Shown here piece after piece: positions 36,467 to 45,305 of a stretch of 45,315 nt of DNA. The number at the start of each line of letters is the position of its first letter. The stretch's first letter is position 1. The translations under genes and the position numbers were made by a program. The DNA is from Verrucomicrobiales bacterium (GTDB lineage: Bacteria; Verrucomicrobiota; Verrucomicrobiia; Verrucomicrobiales; V1-33), in contig JAGNEJ010000031.1 of NCBI GenBank assembly GCA_018003315.1, positions 1-45,315 of the forward strand. Reading direction: 5' to 3'. Under the pieces are notes generated by a model that had not been told where the DNA came from, made no database searches, and worked only from the letters and a program-made list of their open reading frames with translations.

Positions 36467-39202
36467 ATGCGAATCTCCCCGGTGCTGCTGTCATTGGTTT
36501 TTTCCTCTTCCCTGGCCATCGCGGCTCCGCCAGTAGCGGTGGAGGATGCCTATTCGCTCAGTGAGGATGCTCCCCTGACAAAATCCGGGACGGACGGAAT
36601 GCGGTCCAATGACAATGCAGGCGCAGCGGCGGATCCGGTTGTCGGTCTGGTGACTTCCCCCCTGCATGGCGTCCTGACATTGTCTCCGGACGGCGGCTTC
36701 ACCTACGTGCCGACGACAAATTTCAATGGGTCGGACAGCTTTCTGTACAAGGTGTTCGGAGACCGTGCGGCCTCGGCGTTTACCATCGATGAAAATGCCT
36801 CCTCCCTGAAAATTGGCGCCACCCTGCGCATTACGTTTTAGGGAATTCCCAGCATTTCCTCGGATTCCTCCACATCCAAAGTCAAGGGCACCCTGGCTGC
36901 GGCGATTGCGCCCAATGCGGCACCATTCAGCGTGATCCGCATCACGGATCTCGATGCGCGCTTGTCCGATGCGGTGAGTCTGAAACTGGGCGTCGGCTGC
37001 ATTCCCATTCTCAATACCTGCGTGGGCGCGGTGCAGTTCGACAGCGATCCCGACGCGATTACGCTGCGGATGGACTCGGCGGGGCCGACGACCACGGTGC
37101 GGTCCAATGGCGGATTTGATGCCGATGGCAGCATTTTCAGTGTCAGTGGGGATGGTCGGATCAAGGGGACGGAACAATTGGAGCCGGTCTTTCCGCCGAC
37201 GCCGCTGCCGCTGGCCCTGCCAGCCATCCCGATGCCATTCAATGGCAAGGTCAGCGTTTCCGGCGGCGTGGCCCGGGTGGAATTGCAGGTCAACTACAAG
37301 GGCACGCTGGCAGTGGATGCGAGCACCAGTCTGTCGTTCAGCCTCAGCGGCGTCATCAAGGCGAATGCGGATGCGCCGCTGCCGGCGGTCGAAGAATCCC
37401 CGTCCGCACCGGTCAGCCTGACCATTCTGCCGGTCAACGATGCACCGGTGGCCGGGCCGGATGCCTATCTGGTCAAAGCCGGCACGACACTAGCCGTTTC
37501 CGCGAGCGGCCAGTTGACCGCGGAGGAACTGATTCCAGCCGGGTCGGTCTGGAAATACCACCACAATGGAACCGACCTTGGCTCCACCTGGAAATCCTGG
37601 AATTTCAATGATGCTGGATGGGTCGGCGGCCAGGCGGAACTGGGCTACGGAGATTCCGGAATTCTGGGCGGCAACCGCGCAGAAAAAACCAACATCAAGG
37701 GGGCAGCTGCGCGTCCCACGGCCTATTTCCGCCGGGAATTCAACGTCACCGGGATCAATGCCACCCGGAGCCTGACATTCGATCTGCTGCGGGACGACGG
37801 AGCCGCCGTTTATTTGAACGGCATCGAGGTGGGCAGACAGAATCTCGCGCCTGCCGCGGATTACGCCACCCTGGCTGCGTCCCGCATCCCCAATGCCGAT
37901 GAAACCCGCTTTTTCCCGGAGACCGTGCCTCCGGGACTGCTGTTGGAAGGAAAAAATGTAGTCGCCGTGGAAGTGCACCAGTTTTCCACTTCTGATTACT
38001 ATTCAGTGGGTCAGATTGATCCGGCGGATGTGAGTTTCGATTTCAAACTGCGGCGCGAATCCGGCCTGACCGGCCTGCTGGTGAACGATGCGGACATCGA
38101 TTCCCCTGCGATGACGGTGGCGGTCCATGCGCCGCCGGCCCATGGTACCCTGACAATCCAGCCGGATGGCGGGTTTGACTACACGCCGGACCAGGGGTTT
38201 TCCGGTGAGGATTCCTTTCTCTACCGACTCAGCGACGGCGGCACGGAAGATGCGGAGGTCCGGTTGATTTCTCCCGGAGCCACCTGGAAATACCTGGATG
38301 ACGACAACGACCCCGGCACCGCCTGGAAGGAGCCGGGATATGCCGACAGCGGCTGGGCGTCGGGGGCCGCTGAGATTGGCTATGGGGACGACAACTCGAT
38401 CGACGACCGTCCGGAAGCCACCAAGCTGAGTTATCTGCTAGGAAATCCGCCGGTGACCACGTATTTCCGAAAAAGGTTCACCCTGCCGCTGCCGAAAGCC
38501 ATGCTGAAATCGCTCAAACTTCGAGTGCTGCGGGATGACGGGGTGGCGGTGTATCTAAACGGCGTGGAAATCGCCCGTGACAACCTGCCGTCCGGCGCGG
38601 GTCATGACACCGGCGCCACGCTGCCCATTGAAGGGGAACTGGAAGCCCGGTTCAATGAGTTCACCGTCCCCGCCGTCGGTCTGGCTGCGCTGGTGGAGGG
38701 CACCAATGTGCTGGCTGTGGAACTGCACCAGAACGCGTGGGTCAGCAATGACGCGAGCTTTGACTGCGAACTCATCGCCACGGCACTGCCCGGCGGAAAA
38801 GTGACTCTGAATGTGACCGCGGATGACTTCGACCATGACTTGATGGCCGATGCCTGGGAGCGCAGCCACCAGCTTGATTTCGCGGTCGCCAATGGGGACG
38901 AGGACGATGATCGCGATGGATTTTCCAATCGCGCCGAATTTCTGGCTGACACTGACCCTCACGATGCCGCCAGCCATTTGAGGATCGCATCGGCCAGTCG
39001 GGAGGGAAATGAGGCGGTGCTACGCCTTCCGGCATCCTTGGCACGGAGGTATGTCCTGCAAACTTCGCCGGATCTGACAGCCTGGACGGATGCGGGGCTG
39101 CCGGTGACTCCTGCGGGTCCGTCACTGGAATTTCGCACGTCGCTTCCGGTGCAGGGAGCGCCGGTGTTTTATCGGGTGCGGGTGGATTTCCAGTTCCCGT
39201 GA
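36467..39202 (+). pseudogene. secreted cadherin-like/tandem-95 protein interrupted by in-frame TAG
   Basis: One continuous frame (911 sense-equivalent codons) is broken by TAG at 36839-36841 (codon 125). Before it: a signal peptide (cleavage near A-I-A, about residue 19) and a cadherin-like unit (about 23-100, with F-T-Y-V-P-T-T-N-F-N-G-S-D-S-F). After it the same frame continues with a beta domain, a second cadherin-like unit containing an inserted W-K-Y module (about 354-530), a second W-K-Y module (about 600-780), a D-R-D-G calcium-type loop and the shared C-terminal module ending V-F-Y-R-V-R-V. The stop falls within a domain (L-K-I-G-A-T-L-R-I-T-F | G-I-P-S), so the gene is broken, read through, or carries a sequence error. 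The downstream part could also start at 36932. Confidence 0.7.
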
Positions 39203-39235: not shown

Positions 39236-42200
39236 TCAAGGCACCGACTGCTGGTGCACTGCGGACTGCATCAGCGGCAGGTCGATGCCGCGCTTTTTCA
39301 TTTCCGCAAAGTCTGCCTTCATCCGCTCCAGCCACGGAGTGCCGTCCACTTCCGCCTCGCCCACCAGGCCCTGTTCATAAATGTCACGGGCTTCGGCCGT
39401 CCGGTTTTCCATCATGGCCAGATGTCCCAGCAGAAGCTGGATGAGCGGCCCGGACTGCGTGGTCAGGGCGGCGGCCTCCTCGCAGAGGGGGCGGGCTTCG
39501 TCCGTTTTGTGTTCCAGGATTTTGCCCCAGGCCAGCGATGCCAGGACGGATGCCAGGTCATTGGCGGAATCCGGCGTCGGATCCACCGCGTGGAGGCGAC
39601 GCCGGATTTCCAGTTCGGCCTGCCAGTGCTGGAGGGCCGCGGAATCCTGCTGGCGGCGGGACAAATAGCCGCCCATTTCCCCCTGGCACGCCGCTTCCGT
39701 GCGCGGCGAACCGGTGCGTTTTGCATTGGTCAGGGCCAGCCGGAATGTTTCTTCCGCCTCCTGCTGACGTCCGCGCCGCTCCAGAAATTCTCCGTACTGT
39801 TTGGTGCATTCGACCGCCCGGATTTGCCAGGCGACGGCTTCAACCGCCTGGGCGATCACTGCGTTGAGAATGCTCATGCCTTTTTGGAACAGCGCGTCCG
39901 CCTCCCCGGTTTTTCCCTGCAGTTCCCGCATCAGAGCCAGGCTCTGGATGGAATCGGCCAGGTCCATGCGGGCGGCGAGGTTGGTTTTCTGGGAGTCCGC
40001 AAGCACTTGGCGGATGTCCACCGCCTGCTGCAGGCTGTGGGCGGCGATGGCGAAATTTCCCGGATTGAAGCCGGTGATGCGCACGCCCTCACTGAGCACG
40101 CCGGCATAGTCGTTGTTCAAATCCACGCGGTCCGGAAACCGGGCCGCGAGATCGCGCAGAATGGCGGTGCTGCGGTCGAAGCAGCGAACGGCGTCGCCCG
40201 GCATTCCGGCGGCTTTATAGGCAAATCCGGCATCCCGGAGCAGGCGGGCCAGCGGCAGGTTGTAGGCATCCGGGAGCTTGTCGGCGATTTCCTCGCGCAG
40301 ATGCAGCGCTTCGGAATAGCATTGGAGCGAGCGTTCAAAATGGCGGCGGTGGCGGAACACATTGCCCAGCCGTGCCAGGCTGGCGCTGAGGGGCATTTTC
40401 TCTGCAATATCGCCGGGAGCAGCCGCCTGCATTTTCCGCCGCAGCAGCAGGGATTTTTCATAGGACTGTTCGGCTTCCGCATCGCGATTCATCTCCAGAA
40501 GCACGTCCCCCATGCGGTCGCAGGTTGAGGCCAGGCTGGCGGACAGTGCGGATTCGTCAGGAAATCTGGCACGCCATTGTTCCAGCAATTGTTCATTTTC
40601 CCGGTAACTGGCGAGGGCCTCGCGCATGTTGCCTTCGGCAAGGCGGATGTCGCCGCGCAGATCCCTGGCGCCGACGAACGATTGCACGTCCTGCTGCGTT
40701 CGCAACCCGGCGGACTCGAAGCGACCGATGATCCGGTTGGCAATGTCGTTGAGCAGCACGTACTGTCCGGTTTCCTGCAGTCGTCCGCGCAGGTCGTTCA
40801 TGAGGAAAAACATGTCATCTTCCGTCACCTTGCGTGCGGTTTCGGCCTCCTGCTGGGCAGCGGTGGATTCAGCGGCGGACTTCTGGGCTTGAATCCGGGC
40901 ATTCTCCGACTCGCGGGCGGCGGCGATGGATTGGTTGCGCTGGTGCCAGCCAAAGCCCGCGGCGCCAATGGCTGCGCTGCTCAGCACGGCAAAGGCTGCA
41001 ACCAGCTTTCGGGTCCGGCGGAGGCGCTCGCGCAGCTTTGCGGCCTGTTCCGCGGTCCGGCGCGAGTCCTCCTGCCGCTGTTGCTCCTGCGCTTTCAGCC
41101 GAAGGGCTTCACGACGGGAAGCAAGGGATTCCACGCGCTGCGCCAGGGCTTCCGCGCTTTGCAGGCGCTTTTCCAGACTGCCGTGGACTGCGGTGGCGAT
41201 GTCTTCGCGGAGCAGGGCATCGCTCACGTCCTGTTCCCACCCCACGGCCAGCGCCCGGTGCGCATCCGCCACGGCCAGTTGATACAGGATGATGCCCAGG
41301 GCATACACGTCCCCCAGAATGCCGGGCGGACGTCCGGTGAGGTATTCCGGCGGCATGTAAAGCTGGGTGCCGGACTGGGAATCGCTGGAGCCGCGGAACA
41401 GCGTGCGGCTGAAGCCCCCTTGGGTCAGGCTCATCTGCTCCAGGGCCGCCGGATCTGCCAGGGTGCCAATGCCAAAATCCGCCAGCACCGGATGCGGTGT
41501 CCCGGCGGCATCCAGCCGCACCAGGATGTTGCTGGGTTTGAGGTCCTTGTGGATGACCCCCACGGCGTGGGCCGCCCCGACGGTCCGGGCCGTTTGCGCC
41601 ACCAGGCGCAGGCGCACCTCCAGGGGAATCGCCGCCAGACCGCCCTGCTTTTGCGCCCACTGGAGGAGGTTGCCTTCCGGGTAGTATTTGCTTTCAATAA
41701 AATAAGGCTTCTCCGCAGTCTGCGTCTCGTGGATGGTGGCGATGTCTTCGCGGTCTCCCAGGGCGCTTTTCAGCAGGACGAATAATTTCTCCTCCCGGCG
41801 GAACGAACGCAGGCGGTCGGCATCGAAACAGAACTTGAACACGCGCTCCTCCCTGGTCCGGAGATGGCGCGCCAGCCAGGCTTCGCCAAATCCTCCCTCG
41901 CCCAGCCGCTTTTCCAGATGCCAGCCGGCGCGGCCCGGAACCTCCTGGCCGACCGAGGGCCGCCAGCCCAGGGTTTCGGCCTCGCCGGCATCCAGGTGAC
42001 GCCAGGCATCATCCGTGTCTTTGGGCGGCTGCAGGGGAGCAAGGCCAGCGGCTCCGATTTCACAAACCTGCAGCGGTTCCTCCAGTGATTCCCCATCGCC
42101 ACGGAAACGATAGCGTCCGTGCGCCAGAAATGCCACAGGCGGGAGAGGCTCGTCCGGGGCCTCCCTCCGCTCGGGAGGTTCCGGGTGTTCCCGCAAAAAT

Positions 42201-43594
42201 TGACGGGCTTCGCTGAACACCCCGCGAGTGACCAGAATCTGTCCAGGCTGTGCCATTTCCATGAGCCGCGCCGCAAGGTCCACGGCGGGGCCGAAGGGTT
42301 TTTCACGCCCGGTTGCGGCATCCTTCAACGAACGAACCTCACCCACATGCAGCCCAACGCGCAACAGGGGCAGCCCCAGGCGGGAAAGCTGCCACTGGCA
42401 GCGCAGGGCGGCGCGAACCGCCTCGCTGGGAGTGGGAAATTCGGCATGGATGCGCATCCCGGCGGTCTCCAGTAACCGCCCGCCGCCGCCGGGCAGGCAT
42501 TGCTGGAAGCAGGCGGTGATTTTTGTCAGGACCGTCCGGAGATCCGCCGCATCCACCGTCCGGGTTCGGCCGGACAGGCCGGGGATTTCCGCAAACAGCA
42601 GCGTAGCGGTGCGTCCGCCCTCTGGAGTGGAAAGCGCAGCCGGTCCCCCCGCGGCATCGAGGAAGGCGGACTTCAACTCCCTGACGGACTGAAATCTCCT
42701 CGCTGGTTCGCGCTGCATGGCGCGCCGCACCACTTCGTCCAGCCGCGGGTCCAGCGGACGCAGATCGCTGGGCGAGGCAAAGGCTCCTGACGGACGCTGG
42801 CCGGTCAGCAGTTCGTAAAGGACAACGCCCAGGGTGTAAATGTCCGTGCGTTCATCCGCTTCGCCCCGTTCCTGTTCGGGTGCCATGTAAACCGGCGTTC
42901 CGGCTGCCAGTTCGGAGGCCGGCTGGGCGCCGTCGGTCATTTTTGCCAGCCCGAAATCCGCGACTTTGATCCACCCTTCGGGGTCCACCAGGATGTTGGA
43001 TGGTTTGAGGTCGCGGTGCACAATGCCCGCCTGGTGCGCTGCGGTGATGGCATCGCACAGGTGGCTGAAAATTTCCACCGTGCGGAAAAGGTCCGGCGGC
43101 CCGGATCCCCGCAGGGCTTGCGCCAGGTCGGTGCCTTCCACCAGTTCCATGACGAAATACGCCAGACCGGAACTGGTGGTGCCGAAATCATGCACCGTGA
43201 CCACGTTGCGGTGTTTCAGCCGGGCTAGGGCGCGAGCCTCGCGTTGAAATCGCATGGTTAGGTCCTCGTCGAGCGAGACGCTCGGAGGCAGCACCTTGAT
43301 CGCCACCTTTCGCTCCAGGGAGGGGTCCCAGGCCTCGTAAACCGCACCCATGCCGCCCGCCCCGATCAACGGCCCCAGATCATATCCCGGAAACTCTCCG
43401 GCACATTCCTCCGGAGACGGTGGCATCAGACCACCCGCTCCCTGCGGCGGAGCAGTGTCCGCCAAGTTCAGCAGTTTCATCGGATCAAGCCTCCGCTGAC
43501 CGCCAGTGACTGTGCGCTTGGCGGAGGCAACCGTCGAAACCTCGTCCCTTTCAGTGGACGCGGCAGGACGCAATGGGGAATCGGACGTGCTCAT
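39236..43594 (-). CDS. dual Ser/Thr kinase with degenerate cyclase domain and TPR region
   Basis: This is a 1452-residue single-pass membrane protein. Kinase 1 (about 70-325) has G78-A-G-G-M-G, V-A-I-K, H193-R-D195, D-F-G and A-P-E. A class III nucleotide-cyclase-like domain follows (about 328-475): F334-A-E336-I replaces the usual F-A-D-I, and G-M380-R-I replaces the second metal Asp, so catalysis is unlikely. Kinase 2 (about 563-820) has G565-E-G-G-F-G570, V-F-K, H682-K-D684 and D-F-G, with P-P-E for A-P-E. A basic coiled coil leads to a TM helix (about 864-886). The last 560 residues are coiled coil and TPR-like repeats, predicted outside the cytoplasm. It probably senses an external cue and phosphorylates unknown targets. 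Confidence 0.88.
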   Translation of the reverse strand: MSTSDSPLRPAASTERDEVSTVASAKRTVTGGQRRLDPMKLLNLADTAPPQGAGGLMPPSPEECAGEFPGYDLGPLIGAGGMGAVYEAWDPSLERKVAIKVLPPSVSLDEDLTMRFQREARALARLKHRNVVTVHDFGTTSSGLAYFVMELVEGTDLAQALRGSGPPDLFRTVEIFSHLCDAITAAHQAGIVHRDLKPSNILVDPEGWIKVADFGLAKMTDGAQPASELAAGTPVYMAPEQERGEADERTDIYTLGVVLYELLTGQRPSGAFASPSDLRPLDPRLDEVVRRAMQREPARRFQSVRELKSAFLDAAGGPAALSTPEGGRTATLLFAEIPGLSGRTRTVDAADLRTVLTKITACFQQCLPGGGGRLLETAGMRIHAEFPTPSEAVRAALRCQWQLSRLGLPLLRVGLHVGEVRSLKDAATGREKPFGPAVDLAARLMEMAQPGQILVTRGVFSEARQFLREHPEPPERREAPDEPLPPVAFLAHGRYRFRGDGESLEEPLQVCEIGAAGLAPLQPPKDTDDAWRHLDAGEAETLGWRPSVGQEVPGRAGWHLEKRLGEGGFGEAWLARHLRTREERVFKFCFDADRLRSFRREEKLFVLLKSALGDREDIATIHETQTAEKPYFIESKYYPEGNLLQWAQKQGGLAAIPLEVRLRLVAQTARTVGAAHAVGVIHKDLKPSNILVRLDAAGTPHPVLADFGIGTLADPAALEQMSLTQGGFSRTLFRGSSDSQSGTQLYMPPEYLTGRPPGILGDVYALGIILYQLAVADAHRALAVGWEQDVSDALLREDIATAVHGSLEKRLQSAEALAQRVESLASRREALRLKAQEQQRQEDSRRTAEQAAKLRERLRRTRKLVAAFAVLSSAAIGAAGFGWHQRNQSIAAARESENARIQAQKSAAESTAAQQEAETARKVTEDDMFFLMNDLRGRLQETGQYVLLNDIANRIIGRFESAGLRTQQDVQSFVGARDLRGDIRLAEGNMREALASYRENEQLLEQWRARFPDESALSASLASTCDRMGDVLLEMNRDAEAEQSYEKSLLLRRKMQAAAPGDIAEKMPLSASLARLGNVFRHRRHFERSLQCYSEALHLREEIADKLPDAYNLPLARLLRDAGFAYKAAGMPGDAVRCFDRSTAILRDLAARFPDRVDLNNDYAGVLSEGVRITGFNPGNFAIAAHSLQQAVDIRQVLADSQKTNLAARMDLADSIQSLALMRELQGKTGEADALFQKGMSILNAVIAQAVEAVAWQIRAVECTKQYGEFLERRGRQQEAEETFRLALTNAKRTGSPRTEAACQGEMGGYLSRRQQDSAALQHWQAELEIRRRLHAVDPTPDSANDLASVLASLAWGKILEHKTDEARPLCEEAAALTTQSGPLIQLLLGHLAMMENRTAEARDIYEQGLVGEAEVDGTPWLERMKADFAEMKKRGIDLPLMQSAVHQQSVP

Positions 43595-44648: not shown

Positions 44649-45305
44649 ATGGCCAATTTTTTTCCGCGCTGGACGAATACCCTGCCTCTCCAAATCATCG
44701 CTGCCCTGCTGGTCCTGAGCGGAGGCGTTTCCCTTGGGGTCTGGTATTATTTCACTCCGAAATACACCCGGGTGGGATACCAGCCGAACCAGCCGGTGCC
44801 GTTTTCGCATAAAATCCATGTGACGCAGCTGGGGATGGATTGCCGCTACTGCCACAGTTTCGTGGAGCAGAGCGAGCATGCCAACGTGCCGACTTCCGCG
44901 ACCTGCTGGAACTGCCACATGCACGTGAAGCCGAATTCCCCGAACCTGGCCAAGCTCAAGGAAAGTGTCGAGACCGGCAAGCCGATGGAATGGATCAAGG
45001 TGCACAAGGTGCCGGATTATGCGTATTTCAATCACAGCGTGCATGTGTCGAGCGGCATTTCGTGCGTCAGTTGCCACGGAGACGTGGGGGAGATGCCGGT
45101 GGTGTTTCACGACCAGCCGCAGAGCATGAGCTGGTGCCTGGACTGCCACCGCAACCCCGAAAACAGCCTGCGTCCTCTGGACAAGATTACGGATTTGAAG
45201 TGGAAGCCGGAGAACGACGGCAAGACGCAGGCTGAAATGGGCGAAAAGCTGAAGAAAAACTGGCACATTGAAGCGCCTGAAAACTGCGCCGCCTGTCACC
45301 GTTAG
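44649..45305 (+). CDS. actA: pentaheme cytochrome c, alternative complex III subunit ActA
   Basis: This 218-residue protein has one N-terminal membrane helix (about 14-35) and five CxxCH heme sites: C65-R-Y-C-H, C86-W-N-C-H, C139-V-S-C-H, C163-L-D-C-H and C213-A-A-C-H. Many extra histidines (H54, H57, H129, H132, H154) could be distal ligands. Size, single anchor and heme pattern match ActA, the pentaheme subunit of the quinol:acceptor alternative complex III, which passes electrons from menaquinol to a terminal oxidase. ActB (molybdopterin-like/Fe-S) would be expected next, but the window ends 10 bp after the stop. The ATG has no Shine-Dalgarno and a very short predicted leader. Confidence 0.88.
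   Translation: MANFFPRWTNTLPLQIIAALLVLSGGVSLGVWYYFTPKYTRVGYQPNQPVPFSHKIHVTQLGMDCRYCHSFVEQSEHANVPTSATCWNCHMHVKPNSPNLAKLKESVETGKPMEWIKVHKVPDYAYFNHSVHVSSGISCVSCHGDVGEMPVVFHDQPQSMSWCLDCHRNPENSLRPLDKITDLKWKPENDGKTQAEMGEKLKKNWHIEAPENCAACHR

Follow-up and report, generated by a model that had tools for sequence, protein, structure and literature searches.

The window analysed here is a stretch of 45,315 nucleotides from the 5.1 Mb draft genome of a Verrucomicrobiales bacterium (contig JAGNEJ010000031.1), and the gene in question is a single unbroken open reading frame (ORF) on its minus strand (39236-43594) that starts with ATG and translates to 1452 amino acids. The product is a receptor-type protein in which two kinase domains (K1 and K2) flank a domain with a class III nucleotidyl cyclase fold (CYC), followed by a transmembrane segment (TM) and TPR repeats; all domain coordinates below are on the minus strand. 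Pfam reports two Pkinase stretches plus TPRs. K1 (residues 67-316, 42647-43396) is a PknB-like Ser/Thr kinase that VIA-align superposes on Mycobacterium tuberculosis PknB with Z 32 and 39% identity. CYC (residues 325-517, 42044-42622) is joined to K2 by a linker (residues 518-555, 41930-42043) containing the family-conserved P520, P524 and GWRP motif. K2 (residues 556-815, 41150-41929), the second of the Pkinase stretches, belongs to a family-specific type of Ser/Thr kinase with a long, conserved activation segment. The first-pass annotation, made from the letters alone, had read both kinases as intact, and this is borne out: the beta-3 Lys, the HRD-type catalytic Asp and the DFG Asp expected of an active Ser/Thr kinase are present in K1 (VAIK, K100; HRD, D195; DFG, D213) and in K2 (VFKFC, K587; HKD, D684; DFG, D706). 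A hydropathy peak places the predicted TM at about residues 863-882 (40949-41008), inside a stretch (824-898) that is modelled as one long helix, and the C-terminal region (residues 899-1452, 39239-40900), which matches TPR_2, TPR_12 and TPR_1, would be periplasmic. In a structural model of K1-CYC-K2 the individual domains are predicted well (mean predicted local distance difference test score, pLDDT, 87.6). This domain order is not a product of chance, as a relative with the identical order from another Verrucomicrobiia genome (L056/L089) aligns with the window protein over residues 57-1279 (E 6e-200).

On the window protein the Pfam profile Guanylate_cyc scores 19.4 bits, just below its cut-off of 21.9 (26.5 bits when neighbouring pieces are added). 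Folded alone with 63 relatives in AlphaFold2, CYC is nevertheless modelled with confidence (mean pLDDT 90.9). All Foldseek matches listed for this model are class III cyclases, and VIA-align superposes it on Ma1120 (Z 21.3) and Rv1900c (LipJ; Z 20.7). The cyclase-like domain that had been proposed for residues 328-475 is therefore real as a fold, but it ends at about residue 517. The active site is another matter. In the family alignment, the two positions that bind metal in class III cyclase enzymes are occupied by E336 (codon GAA, 42587-42589) and M380 (codon ATG, 42455-42457), as initially noted, whereas 76 of the 78 relatives in which no further domain precedes CYC (hereafter uncapped) have Asp at both. 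The adenine-contacting Lys is replaced as well (E376), and of the catalytic residues the transition-state Arg (R443) is retained. The combined replacements at 336, 376 and 380 support the earlier proposal of a catalytically dead cyclase between two intact kinases: CYC of the window protein is very probably not an enzyme.

Could CYC nonetheless take part in catalysis? In animal adenylyl cyclases, C2 is a non-catalytic half that pairs with C1. Outside the gene, two class III cyclase matches occur in the same genome, one strong (G000:C40:687-1184, 103 bits) and one not strong (G000:C71:24439-24840). The existence of these two regions, along with the retained R443, would suit a CYC that forms the non-catalytic half of a heterodimeric cyclase with an intact partner elsewhere in the cell; however, of the C2-type Lys, Asp/Thr, Asn and Arg only the Arg is left in the window protein, and even this Arg is lost in most relatives with decayed sites, which makes the pairing highly improbable. 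That CYC is itself an active cyclase with unusual residues is scarcely credible. Not every canonical residue is needed, since Ma1120 is active although Ala stands where the transition-state Asn would be (PMC4215837), but here both metal Asps have been replaced, one of them by Met.

The gene is best understood as a member of a family. A scan of 84,980 species genomes yielded 266 loci that encode relatives, and the 78 loci that were kept fall in Planctomycetota, Verrucomicrobiota, Acidobacteriota, Hydrogenedentes, Sumerlaeota, Gemmatimonadota and one Pseudomarimonas. The usual layout is an N-terminal CYC, then K2, a TM, and a tail of WD40 or TPR repeats; K1 is mostly absent. CYC and K2 form a unit: residues 316-880 of the window protein (~560 amino acids) are 35-44% identical to proteins from other families of the order. 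The window protein has what defines the family, namely a class III fold adjoining an HKD-type kinase with the motifs VFKFC, SGTQLY and PPEYL, followed by a TM and a repeat tail, and its K2 groups within the family's K2 clade. The distribution is patchy, with relatives in 19 of 149 genomes of one acidobacterial class and 14 of 347 of one planctomycete class, and none of the 12 other genomes of the window's own taxonomic family contains an orthologue (one genome in 13). Many members of the wider family lack the transition-state Asn even where the metal Asps are present; because Ma1120 is active without it, this absence need not abolish activity, and uncapped members may be enzymes or sensors. 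CYC-K2 thus constitutes a widespread receptor-kinase family that carries no name and no assigned function in the libraries searched.

CYC could be read in 105 family proteins, of which 78 are uncapped and 27 have an N-terminal domain. The order K1-CYC-K2 occurs in 21 of the 105, spread over several phyla: the window genome and the Verrucomicrobiia genome mentioned above, many Acidobacteriota, Sumerlaeota and an unclassified bacterium. In the remaining K1-bearing relatives a pattern scan found nearly all kinase motifs, with few misses. The first-pass annotation did not recognise the order as a described architecture; no paper on the K1-CYC-K2 order or on a 'pseudocyclase' turned up in the open-licence literature searched, but the order is not unique to this gene. 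K1 was evidently joined to CYC-K2 more than once, because a single K1 clade is rejected (approximately unbiased (AU) test, p 0.0005). K1 of the window protein groups with kinases of its own order. The AU test does not reject a sister relationship with K1 of L056 (p 0.67), so these two sequences may possibly go back to one fusion event. An origin of K1 by duplication of K2 was rejected, the PknB-like K1 and K2 being separate clades.

K1 is not the only domain found ahead of this unit. An OmpR-type winged helix precedes CYC-K2 in L204 (Pfam Trans_reg_C) and, as read by eye, in L210, L215, L218 and L222; these five are possibly membrane proteins that combine transcription regulator and kinase. 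At L123:5413-15188 lie two adjoining CYC-K2 paralogues with degenerate metal sites in both (E/A and E/C), one of which apparently has a DUF4062-like N-terminal domain (again read by eye). Other relatives have no CYC: L217:1434-5639 (minus strand) encodes K1 and K2 in direct series and then WD40 repeats, and L220/L221 have a winged helix joined to K2.

The state of the active site tends to go with what stands in front of it. At least one metal Asp is lost in 18 of the 27 CYCs capped by K1, an OmpR-type winged helix or a DUF4062-like domain, compared with 2 of the 78 uncapped. On the K2 tree, a quick tree with many open forks, making loss dependent on fusion improves the model (likelihood ratio 34.4, p 3e-8), and an association as strong as the observed one arose in 0 of 2000 simulations under independence. 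The association holds for K1 caps alone (13/21 against 2/78, p 5e-7; p 2e-6 with the window protein excluded), for the loss of both metal sites (p 2e-5), and inside one clade of 41 proteins, in which 16 of 24 capped but 1 of 17 uncapped members show loss (Fisher p 9e-5). An independent-pairs test on well-supported branches yielded five pairs only, too few to decide. A limit of these tests is that both the idea of decay upon fusion and the labels for the winged helix and DUF4062 were set after the data had been seen. Badly decayed CYCs align poorly, and a row-by-row motif scan of the decayed copies found no displaced site.

What is lost and what is kept in the decayed copies differs sharply by position. 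Among the conserved active-site positions, Asp falls from 97% to 10% at position 336 and from 97% to 20% at position 380, the transition-state Arg at 443 from 99% to 30%, and Lys at 498 (K498) from 86% to none, whereas Q452, R464, G493 and P524 stand at 99-100% in intact and decayed copies alike, and F460, position 489, Y495, E512 and G514 at 90-97% in the decayed ones. The window protein has most of the decay-resistant positions, plus R443. From the alignment, this pattern fits a structural part that is kept for its contacts and freed from catalysis.

These positions bear on two further explanations. CYC might be a vestige under relaxed selection, dispensable once K1 or another N-terminal domain had taken over the input and now decaying without a role. 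This accords with the decay that accompanies N-terminal fusion and with the fact that CYC can be lost altogether, as in L217 and L220/L221. A neutral remnant, however, should also lose Q452, R464, G493, P524 and the others that persist at 90-100%. Moreover, 21 of the 22 proteins that have both K1 and K2 still contain CYC; I therefore consider a mere vestige rather unlikely. Alternatively, as the first-pass annotation suggested, CYC might be a nucleotide sensor that binds ATP or GTP without turnover and so gates the kinases. The fold is intact and R443 is kept. Among the 78 uncapped relatives, 76 retain the metal Asps despite variation at other catalytic residues, which in those proteins fits binding of a ligand, not turnover. 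In the window protein, though, neither the two metal Asps nor the Lys that contacts the base survive, which makes metal-nucleotide binding in the known manner unlikely, and the decayed relatives lose catalytic positions while keeping others. The suggestion thus finds no support: CYC here is probably not a metal-nucleotide sensor, and a gating of the kinases by bound ATP or GTP is distinctly improbable. The companion suggestion of a dimerisation switch fares somewhat better, in that it is compatible with the conserved positions.

That decay occurs mainly upon fusion of a domain ahead suggests that CYC began as an enzyme-like part and has since become a scaffold. I consider it somewhat probable that the window protein is a membrane Ser/Thr receptor kinase of the CYC-kinase family in which a PknB-like K1 has been fused ahead of a dead CYC that acts as a coupler. 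CYC, keeping its fold and its non-catalytic conserved positions, would serve as a rigid element that fixes K1 relative to K2, and it would probably self-associate and so pair two receptor chains. A signal received by the periplasmic TPR part could pass along the long TM helix to K2, upon which K1 and K2 might activate each other by cross-phosphorylation or work one after the other on targets in the cytoplasm. A similar topology, with a predicted cytoplasmic kinase and periplasmic TPR or WD40 repeats, is given for single-TM planctomycete kinases of comparable type in a survey of Planctomycetota kinases (PMC11032199).

Some points weigh against this explanation. Eight of the 21 K1-bearing relatives retain both metal Asps; a dead cyclase is thus no precondition for K1. 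The model of K1-CYC-K2 has a predicted template modelling score (pTM) of 0.62, and the placement of the domains relative to each other is accordingly unsure. Finally, what the computation shows is the loss of an active site, from which I infer the scaffold role of CYC.

A broader proposal, which I put forward tentatively and would sooner doubt than accept, is that CYC throughout the family is a metal- or nucleotide-gated switch for K2 dimerisation and not a second-messenger enzyme; a domain fused ahead, such as a second kinase or a DNA-binding domain, would tend to supply a new input in place of the gate, CYC would decay to a fixed scaffold, and the window protein would be a rewired two-kinase receptor in which K1 controls K2 within the chain. 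Whatever the mechanism, the family amounts to a natural experiment repeated over several phyla, in which the active site is kept when CYC is N-terminal and is often lost once a domain has been fused in front. It offers a way to test whether a class III cyclase domain can act purely as a regulatory scaffold, and the general link between fusion and active-site loss is of more interest than the single protein.

How does the window protein compare with known systems? It resembles the unnamed CYC-K2-TM-WD40/TPR kinases of Planctomycetota, Verrucomicrobiota and Acidobacteriota in the CYC-K2 junction, the K2 motifs and the order of TM and repeats, with 35-44% identity across CYC and K2 in the first alignment made, but most of these lack K1 and have both metal Asps. 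The TOMM system kinase/cyclase fusion protein (TIGR03903) likewise places a cyclase-like domain after a kinase. Proteins of that family have one kinase and are located in TOMM peptide clusters. The window protein does not belong to it (190.7 bits, cut-off 705.75, the best stretch being a kinase). In mod_pep_cyc (TIGR04510), a putative peptide modification system cyclase, the cyclase part is related to the CYC of this family (227.8 bits for CYC of L116); membership was rejected for the window protein, which scores 47.7 bits against a cut-off of 400 and matches the first 206 of 814 positions only. The PknB PASTA kinase family NF033483 was also rejected (320.9 against 450 bits, kinase part only). 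Ma1120 and Rv1900c, the closest solved folds to CYC, have the metal site, and neither protein contains a kinase. Animal receptor guanylyl cyclases also combine a kinase and a cyclase domain within a single receptor, with the kinase as the dead partner; in the window protein this is reversed, the dead partner being the cyclase. The window protein shares a predicted cytoplasmic kinase, a single TM and a WD40/TPR tail with PknB-type kinases and the planctomycete WD40/TPR Ser/Thr kinases, K1 itself being PknB-like; the word 'cyclase' is absent from the main text of the Planctomycetota survey (PMC11032199).

An assignment to an anti-phage system was rejected: the PADLOC matches to the anti-phage kinases PD-T4-6 / MADS6 cover the kinase domains, and none of the neighbours scanned was recognised as a defence gene. 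A partner extracytoplasmic function (ECF) sigma factor was sought among 58 ORFs just upstream of relatives by a crude motif scan, a weak test, and none was found. The neighbours of the kinase gene suggest no operon: downstream, a convergent gene (36932-39202, plus strand) encodes a large surface protein with cadherin/Ig-like domains, and upstream lie a divergent NfeD-domain gene and, at the edge of the window, a multihaem cytochrome gene (44649-45305, plus strand) whose product resembles QrcA, although its score of 80.4 bits falls short of the cut-off (180 bits).

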